Shown: in pieces, positions 15,335 through 16,514 of the stretch
How the letters are laid out: each line of letters begins with the position of its first letter
Numbering within the stretch: position 1 is the first letter of the stretch
IMG/VR virus record: IMGVR_UViG_3300035698_008476
Span: 1 to 20,068 of that record
Source of the DNA: a virus
Strand: one strand, 5' to 3'
DNA length: 20,068 nucleotides
Made by a program: the position numbers and the translations under genes
Notes under the pieces: model-generated
What the model saw: the letters and a program-made list of their open reading frames with translations, nothing else
The model's database searches: none
Told to the model about the DNA's origin: nothing

Positions 15335-15374
15335 CAAAAAAAGAGCAAGTTAGTGAGTTGGCACCAACTTGCCC
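15335..15374 (-). terminator. Strong intrinsic terminator just upstream of large terminase
   Basis: On the minus strand a 13-base-pair stem (positions 15374-15362 with 15355-15343, two G-U pairs, six-base loop) is followed directly by seven U. It ends about 25 bases before the terminase ATG, so transcripts from the upstream cluster would stop before terminase unless the hairpin is bypassed. Confidence 0.8.
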
Positions 15375-15390
15375 TTTAATTGTTCTTTCG

Positions 15391-15444: not shown

Positions 15445-15478
15445 AAAAAAAGCCCCACAACCTTTCGGTCATAGGGCT
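15445..15478 (-). terminator. Intrinsic terminator after the GC-phased array
   Basis: On the minus strand a 12-base-pair stem (15478-15467 with 15462-15451, with G-U pairs) closes on a GAAA tetraloop and is followed by at least six U. It ends the transcription unit that contains the RAMP-like gene and the 5/6-mer array. Confidence 0.85.
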
Positions 15479-15517
15479 TCGTTTCTTACAATTGTCCTGA
15501 TACTTATTTAGTTTTTA

Positions 15518-15918
15518 CTTTGCTTCGCCTTTGCTCCGCGGCGCCAGGCCTCGCCTTTGCTTCGTCGAGCTTCGCATTGCATCGCCTTTGCTGCGCGGCG
15601 CGTCGCTTCGCTTTGCCTTTGCGTCGCCCTTGCCGAGCTTGGCCGCGCCTGGCCGTTGCTGCGCGCCGCTCCGCCAAGCCACGCCTTTGCAAGGCGGCGC
15701 CTCGCGGCGCCATGCCTTTGCTTCGCTATGCTGGGCGGCGCCTTTGCTTCGCAATGCTTTGCCCGGCTCCGCCTTTGCGTCGCCGAGCCTTGCCCGGCCT
15801 TTGCCCTGCTGAGCAGTGCCTTGCCTTTGCCGTGCCAAGCGACGCCTCGCCTTTGCTTCGCTTTGCTTTGCTACGCCCTTGCCGCGCCATGCAAAGCTCT
15901 GCTATGCTAAGCCTTCGC
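15518..15918. repeat. Array of 77 five- or six-base units ending in GC, helically phased
   Basis: Read on the plus strand, the region splits without gaps into 61 pentamers NNNGC and 16 hexamers, mostly CTTTGC. Only one unit (TTCGT near 15561) lacks the final GC. Hexamers start at 15518, 15529, 15555, 15586, 15617, 15628, 15654, 15685, 15716, 15742, 15773, 15799, 15825, 15851, 15877 and 15913, so most intervals are 26 or 31 bases (one hexamer plus four or five pentamers); the series 11, 26, 31, 31 occurs twice. Mean unit length is 5.21 bases, so two units span 10.4 bases, one DNA helix turn. The first three bases of the pentamers vary widely. The array is GC-rich compared with its flanks. It starts 12 bases after the RAMP-like gene stop and ends 40 bases before a terminator. 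Frames stay open on both strands, but 26- and 31-base periods rotate the frame, so it is not coding. Confidence 0.9.
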
Positions 15919-15929
15919 CGAGACAAACC

Positions 15930-16514
15930 TTACTGCTTACTCACTTCTTTCCACTTAAACCTGCCTTTGCCAGAATTACGCCATTGGCCTAATCCACGCA
16001 ATGCACCGTAATCAAGCCATTCCTTGACAAACTTTTCATACTTTTTATCCAAACAAGTAATATCAAAAGCAATACTTGACCCTACCGGCACAGACTCGGA
16101 CCTCGCCAACGCTATTCGCTCACCTTTTGCCGTCTGACCCCTTAATGGTCTTTCGCACCACTCTATTTCACCAACTACATCAATAAATATCTTTCGCGGG
16201 CCAGGGAAAATTACCCCGTCAATTATCTTTTTGTAAGCCTGCAACTTGCTGCTCTTAGTGCCGGAAACCCGCCTTAACATACCGCAGGCATCTTTGAAAA
16301 ATCCCTTGACCTGATAGTCCCACAAAAACGGCCTGCCATCTTCTCGCGGGAAAACAGTCGATGCCTGCGCAATATCATCTTCAGGTAATTCCGCGTGAAG
16401 TTCATCTTCCTGCGGCCCGTCAGGATGCTTGCTGGCAATAAAAGTTCCCGTAATGTCTTTATTACCCGACACCGTGCCAAGTAACGGCTCTGTAAATTCA
16501 ATTCTTACTCTCAT
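15930..16514 (-). CDS. Phage protein with RAMP-like glycine loop, upstream of the GC array
   Basis: A 194-residue protein, ATG overlapping the upstream stop by four bases (ATGA), with AAGGGAA before it. N-terminal residues show a beta-strand start MRVRIEFTEPLLGT, then a FPREDGRPFLWDYQVKGFFK segment near 55-74 and a helix DACGMLRRV. Near the C-terminus, residues 174-186 read GLGQWRNSGKGRF, which fits the glycine-rich loop (G-x-G, five residues, G-x-G-x-aromatic) of RAMP-fold proteins such as Cas5, Cas6 and Cas7. I have met very similar proteins in many phages as hypothetical proteins, so it is a conserved phage family. Assigning the RAMP fold is inference; no catalytic His is evident, and RNA binding rather than cleavage would be the natural guess. 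It is the last gene before the array and terminator. Confidence 0.75.
   Translation of the reverse strand: MRVRIEFTEPLLGTVSGNKDITGTFIASKHPDGPQEDELHAELPEDDIAQASTVFPREDGRPFLWDYQVKGFFKDACGMLRRVSGTKSSKLQAYKKIIDGVIFPGPRKIFIDVVGEIEWCERPLRGQTAKGERIALARSESVPVGSSIAFDITCLDKKYEKFVKEWLDYGALRGLGQWRNSGKGRFKWKEVSKQ

Follow-up and report, generated by a model that had tools for sequence, protein, structure and literature searches.

The closest described system is VIPR (Viral Interference Programmable Repeat), in which a phage RAMP protein is combined with pentanucleotide guide RNAs (PMC13142463, a 2026 preprint). According to the main text of that preprint, VIPR binds double-stranded DNA, represses transcription and serves between competing phages (PMC13142463). 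Type II VIPR, which occurs in Escherichia phage SUSP1 and a Pseudomonas fulva prophage, is built of GGY/NN pentamers; there are three target bases per unit, one of which is skipped, and the skipped bases are mostly codon wobble positions (PMC13142463). In the characterized systems, an accessory vap gene lies beside vipr and each vrRNA ends in a conserved structured 3' tail (PMC13142463). Besides seven types, the preprint refers to 'a related consensus' and to staggered arrays; its main text describes only the skip code, and it names six vap genes for the seven types, so that a type without vap is possible (PMC13142463). Another phage-borne arrangement, TIGR-Tas, likewise pairs one protein with an adjoining array of short, split guides, but its protein has a Nop domain, its RNA is box C/D-like and each unit carries two 9-nt spacers (PMC12045711); it has neither a RAMP protein nor pentamer units, whereas the locus described here combines a RAMP fold with 5-nt units. 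Class 1 CRISPR-Cas systems differ in having CRISPR repeats and several cas genes, neither of which is present here, where a conserved gene cluster is also lacking.

Here, we report the analysis of a locus in the window, by which we mean the whole stretch of 20,068 nucleotides that was analysed, a 20-kb phage fragment from IMG/VR that carries terminase and capsid genes. The locus resembles VIPR in encoding a single small RAMP protein in a phage, and the SUSP1 protein shares its G-x-G...W-R...G-R-F loop. VIPR proteins are RAMP proteins of about 20 kD with an RRM core and a G-loop; the window protein has 194 residues, a RAMP fold and remote homology to Vipr. As VIPR is encoded mainly by phages and proviruses, so the window and the relatives of its gene are found in phage contigs or near integrase and repressor genes. 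Pentanucleotide repeats, in which fixed and variable bases alternate, stand beside the gene in both cases, the consensus here being related to that of VIPR and not identical with it; five guide bases again appear to stand for three target bases, and the guides fit other phages. Nevertheless, there are differences from type II VIPR. The GGY/NN pattern is strict there, whereas the units here read G-H-N-N-N and position 5, a G in SUSP1, is variable and informative. Type II skips one target base per unit, whereas the statistics given below suggest that none is skipped here. Its vrRNAs are separate and about 100 nt long and come with a vap gene and a tail, whereas here there is one long array, divided into blocks that are closed by GCAAWG, and no common accessory gene or tail was found. 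Owing to the G-H-N-N-N code, the block arrays and the absence of an evident accessory gene or common tail, we file the locus under VIPR in the broad sense and not under type II.

Results

Organization of the locus

Positions 15445-16514 of the window span a gene, an array and a terminator, all on the minus strand, which is the arrangement set out in the original prediction. The gene (15930-16514, -) is an open reading frame for a RAMP-fold, Vipr-like protein of 194 residues, an assignment drawn from an AlphaFold2 model, Foldseek and VIA comparisons, a profile match and remote homology to SUSP1 Vipr. The putative pentanucleotide guide array runs from 15918 to 15514 (-) and begins 11 bases after the stop codon, in agreement with the predicted limit of 12 bases; it was delimited by the gain of a hidden Markov model (HMM), and arrays of the same kind adjoin homologous genes. 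It is followed, again as predicted, by an intrinsic terminator-like hairpin (15480-15449, -) with 14 pairs, a loop of 4 and then a T-run. A terminator directly behind the array is not a general feature of the family, being found in five of 113 downstream arrays. Past the array terminator, a second terminator-like hairpin occupies positions 15340-15377 (-), just upstream of the large terminase gene.

The window array is 405 nt long and consists of 78 units of the form G-C-N-N-N, each of which opens with G and 94% of which have C as the second base. Fifteen of the 78 are six-mers, mostly GCAAAG, and their placement is non-random: they close blocks, mostly of 4-7 units, and 13 complete blocks of four or more units can be delimited. 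A two-state array HMM, in which a unit is a G followed by four unconstrained positions and, optionally, a further G, gained 170 in log-likelihood on a 630-nt stretch and 191 on 3 kb; with 30 mononucleotide shuffles of the stretch, the gain was never above zero. Long repeats of the CRISPR type are absent from the window array, an Rfam search returned no match and the folding of the array RNA is unremarkable (z -1.7). Two other explanations of the periodicity were rejected: a coding array, since the mixture of 5-nt and 6-nt units breaks the frames and stop patterns track base composition, and DNA helical phasing, since the mean spacing is 5.12-5.24 nt, mostly about 5.17, and not 5.25.

The RAMP-fold protein and its relation to Vipr

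A RAMP-like protein with a glycine loop had been proposed for the 194-residue product, and both features were recovered. Its C-terminus reads R-GLG-QWRNS-GKG-RF-KW, that is, GxG, five residues and GxGxF, and its AlphaFold2 model, built from an alignment of 44 relatives (pLDDT 88.2, pTM 0.83), has a Cas7/Csm3-like RAMP fold. Foldseek gave 123 matches in the PDB at E <= 0.001; all of the 50 listed are CRISPR effector entries, with Csm3 and type VII Cas7 as the best (E about 1e-6). With VIA, the Z score was 12.0 to both Csm3 (9ash_F) and type VII Cas7 (8yhd_O), at an rmsd of 4-5 over about 160 residues. Sequence identity to these proteins is about 15%, and a profile search matched type VII Cas7 weakly, through the G-loop (E 1.6e-4). 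The likeness to Csm3 (type III-A) and type VII Cas7 in fold and G-loop does not extend to unit spacing, which is 6 nt for them versus 5 nt here. No family in Pfam, NCBIfam or PHROG was above its cut-off for the window protein, and among the curated Cas models the best NCBIfam match was Csm4, at 12.7 bits versus a cut-off of 55. A viral structure library contains a member of the same family with 59% identity, A0A8S5R426 from Siphoviridae sp. ctcMb1; its label, 'Cas system-associated RAMP superfamily protein', names no function and no array.

A profile search against the PDB also gave a weak match to 'SUSP1 Vipr protein' (36pp_D alone, E 0.54), and hhalign of the family against SUSP1 Vipr, as a single comparison, gave a probability of 93% and an E value of 5.6e-8. 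SUSP1 Vipr was taken here as the 195-residue open reading frame at 28474-29061 of KT454805, which lies between two long gaps holding pentamer arrays.

Relatives of the gene and their arrays

Relatives were drawn from IMG/VR, phage records and GTDB genomes. They span many bacterial phyla and one archaeal bin, and comprise IMG/VR contigs and contigs of metagenome-assembled genomes near integrase and repressor genes; some are from human-gut phages and one is from a cultured host genome (Caldicoprobacter, L101). Linkage was counted over the 163 unique loci with enough flank, in 161 of which the neighbourhood search found a 5/6-mer array beside the gene. Gene and array thus form one unit across the family, as had been proposed for the window, rather than the gene recurring without arrays. 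The array is downstream of the gene in 119 of the 163 loci, with a median gap of 1 nt, and upstream in 42, with a median gap of 51 nt, and in all 161 loci with an array its orientation is that of the gene. The two testable homologues without an adjacent array (L090:6001-6681 and L165:3600-4181) may have lost it or have it elsewhere. When 44 loci were scanned end to end, arrays elsewhere in the locus were essentially absent. At L060:3392-3455, L179:9458-9522 and L184:8681-8723, all distant from the gene, the opposite strand carries short stretches resembling an array (HMM gains of 17-21); these are perhaps remnants or chance.

A common accessory gene was not found, no gene cluster within 1.5 kb being present in more than 28 of 166 loci, and the sequence after the arrays has no common motif that could mark a conserved 3' tail, beyond words resembling ribosome-binding sites. 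A distant relative with about 30% identity to the protein of L101 is encoded by Hydrogenobaculum phage 1 (KP282676.1, 15520-16212, -), a named phage that is potentially usable for experiments.

Over 15,929 units of the family, G occupies position 1 in 94% and position 2 in only 3%, and positions 3-5 are variable; position 5 is A in 35%, C in 17%, G in 25% and T in 24%. The second base depends on the lineage: the window has GC, L094 and L099 have GT, L079 has mostly GA, and mixtures occur elsewhere. Protein residues covary with the second base only to the extent of modest correlations, and the fractions of C and T follow GC content. Six-mers with the consensus GCAAWG cut the arrays into blocks of about 4-8 units, the commonest size being 5-7 units counting the six-mer, and the number of blocks of four or more units per array has a median of 12 and reaches 77. 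The array at L099:3234-6300 has at least 571 units after the gene and reaches the end of the 3-kb stretch examined.

Reading of the variable bases

Several ways of reading a block were compared; with the G-H pair removed and the N-N-N triplets joined, the strings look like genuine phage sequence. Compared with triplet shuffles under phage Markov models, the joined triplets gave z +8.1 (reversed strings, 2.3-3.1); under coding-strand models, the values were +9.8 to +11.5 (reversed, 1.9 or below). A junction test from each unit to the next inside a block gave z 8.9 (n 9048), versus 0.2 with reversed letters, and from the last unit to the six-mer triplet z was 3.1, whereas from the six-mer to the next block it was -0.4; in the controls, it was -0.7 on skipping one unit and 0.8 with reversed unit order. 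The junction signal is present separately in the downstream, upstream, genome and viral subsets. These guide statistics are those of the whole family: the window array, with 13 blocks and 46 junctions, is too small a sample to show the effect by itself (z 1.0), and its class, in which position 2 is mostly C, has a junction z of only 1.5. Permuting position 3, 4 or 5 alone costs z 13.3, 14.0 and 11.3, respectively. Joined triplets are accordingly natural, coding-like contiguous sequence, in which all three positions are informative, and because they read as pieces of natural sequence from unit to unit, the array looks like a guide array. There is continuity inside blocks and none across six-mers at distances 1-3; a block therefore seems to be a single guide that covers about 12-24 target bases, three per unit and without gaps. 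A codon register was rejected, no frame being clearly preferred, as was a target that keeps the gaps of the guide or leaves one base open between triplets, which gave no excess over reversed and complemented controls.

One alternative to this gapless reading is that the locus belongs to ordinary VIPR and uses the published code with one skipped base, so that only two bases per unit would be read and the fifth would stay unpaired. Aligned in this pentamer frame, the arrays of SUSP1 read G-Y-N-N-G, and with the same model their position 5 is G in 70-72%; moreover, of the three target bases per unit in the preprint, one is skipped (PMC13142463). However, the cost of permuting position 5 in the forward reading has no counterpart in the reversed one, there is coupling (z 7.4) between position 5 and position 3 of the following unit at a target distance of 1, and the 21/21 match to another phage, described below, takes in the fifth positions. 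Searches with one position left open gave no clear excess over reversed controls. For these arrays, we regard the skip code as unlikely.

Matches to possible targets

The guides are short (12-24 nt). A guide of L059 matches the phage contig L164 in 21 of 21 positions, including all seven fifth positions, with a chance expectation that we estimate at about 7e-4. Another guide, ATAGCAATAATGGGAATGAAG, is kept in seven related phages (L002, L004, L005, L008, L010, L021 and L027), and two IMG/VR contigs match it over 18 bases (L272 and L273); the match to L272, which is from the same sample as L027, extends to 20 of 21 positions. In exact scans of IMG/VR, only one guide was matched, in two contigs, and the other five scans were empty. 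The matches at L272:2371-2388 and L273:9085-9102 both fall in the gap upstream of a gene, in the sense orientation; the gene behind the match is ATPase-like and follows lysis genes in L272, and resembles a major capsid gene in L273. When 66 guides were compared with phage records by blastn, no convincing match emerged, and guide searches of 341 genomes from a single class yielded only near-chance matches. Self targets were absent from the loci, the window and 29 largely complete phage contigs.

The complex might instead bind messenger RNA and block translation. Csm3 and type VII Cas7, the closest solved structures by fold, are components of RNA-targeting complexes, and a ribosome-binding site and start codon lie within some guides. 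Nevertheless, the guides are in the sense orientation of the message, so that RNA from a co-transcribed array would pair with the template DNA strand and not with mRNA, and no promoter signal for antisense transcription of the array was found (mean excess 0.70 +/- 0.30 bits). The enrichment of Shine-Dalgarno and ATG motifs looked striking, but composition-matched random phage fragments give the same rates; no preferred target site is therefore indicated, and targeting of translation starts was rejected as an explanation of the motifs. An mRNA target is, in our judgement, improbable.

Turnover of blocks

Blocks that related arrays have in common keep their order, and the remaining blocks show gain, loss or replacement, as expected for guides under changing selection. 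In the pairs L005/L008, L002/L010 and L025/L026, some blocks are identical and neighbours at the same place are wholly different in their triplets, and no nearby known acquisition gene accounts for this turnover. A structural scaffold, a decoy or a length ruler for a RAMP filament, with meaningless variable bases, would agree with the strict 5/6-nt spacing, which suits one RAMP subunit per unit, and with the G at position 1, which changes least between related arrays (substitution of 1.4%, versus 7-9% at positions 2-5). However, successive units yield natural sequence when their variable bases are taken in order, duplicates within an array account for only 11 of 2026 guides, and aligned related arrays have identical blocks beside wholly different triplets; we give such a role very little credence. 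A Cas6-like processing enzyme or an anti-CRISPR mimic, the array of which would imitate crRNA to occupy host complexes, is just as hard to credit. In its favour, the protein is RAMP-like and phage-encoded and has a G-rich loop, and PADLOC matched family members weakly to Cas7_IIId (best E 0.0016) and to Cas6 (0.0044). Nevertheless, the arrays lack CRISPR repeats, the best folds are Cas7/Csm3 and, among 44 divergent members, there is no position with an invariant Asp, Glu or His. Owing to this lack of an invariant Asp, Glu or His, a Csm3-like nuclease is not indicated and a conserved catalytic acid is not apparent.

Discussion

We propose, with a probability of roughly 0.75, that the locus encodes a phage-encoded RNA-guided system of the VIPR kind, whose block guides, made of gapless three-base units, serve to repress the DNA of rival phages. 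With somewhat less assurance, we consider it probable that a gapless three-letter DNA code is used throughout a widespread VIPR-like clade, in which two fixed bases are for the protein and three for the target, and dozens of short guides follow each other head to tail with a six-nucleotide separator. In such a system, the array would be transcribed together with the RAMP gene, and we infer that RAMP subunits would bind the transcript, one per 5-nt unit, to form a ribonucleoprotein. The near-constant G-H pair, where H is C, T or A according to lineage, would be held by a subunit, which would leave the three variable bases presented. Each block, mostly of 4-7 five-mers and a closing GCAAWG six-mer, would be one guide, the triplets of which would pair with about 12-24 contiguous nt of target; that no base is skipped is again our own deduction from these arrays. 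The likely effect would be that the double-stranded DNA of competing phages, rather than their RNA, is bound and their genes are repressed; ribonucleoprotein formation, DNA as the target and repression as the outcome are carried over from VIPR (PMC13142463).

The original prediction had envisaged a Cas7-like or Cas6-like phage protein that coats or processes the array RNA, as part of a novel system. The Cas7-like fold has been retained, whereas the array as RNA that is simply coated or processed has given way to guides, which is how the joined triplets read. The claim of novelty needs a similar division. With the VIPR preprint, a system of this general kind has been described (PMC13142463), but the gapless code proposed here departs from the skip code of its main text. 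On the computational evidence, the clade is a VIPR-like variant set apart from that main-text code (PMC13142463), and it may already be counted among the seven types that the preprint mentions (PMC13142463).

If this reading is true, interrupted guide RNAs on RAMP proteins would follow two or more codes, the one described here using every target base; the guide RNA would be interrupted and yet the target would be read continuously, unlike the reported VIPR skip code. This would bear on the origin of class 1 CRISPR guides. A programmable DNA binder of roughly 22 kD with naturally multiplexed guides would be at hand, and a short readable rule would predict the targets of hundreds of phage arrays. 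The targeting of rival phages would become directly testable.
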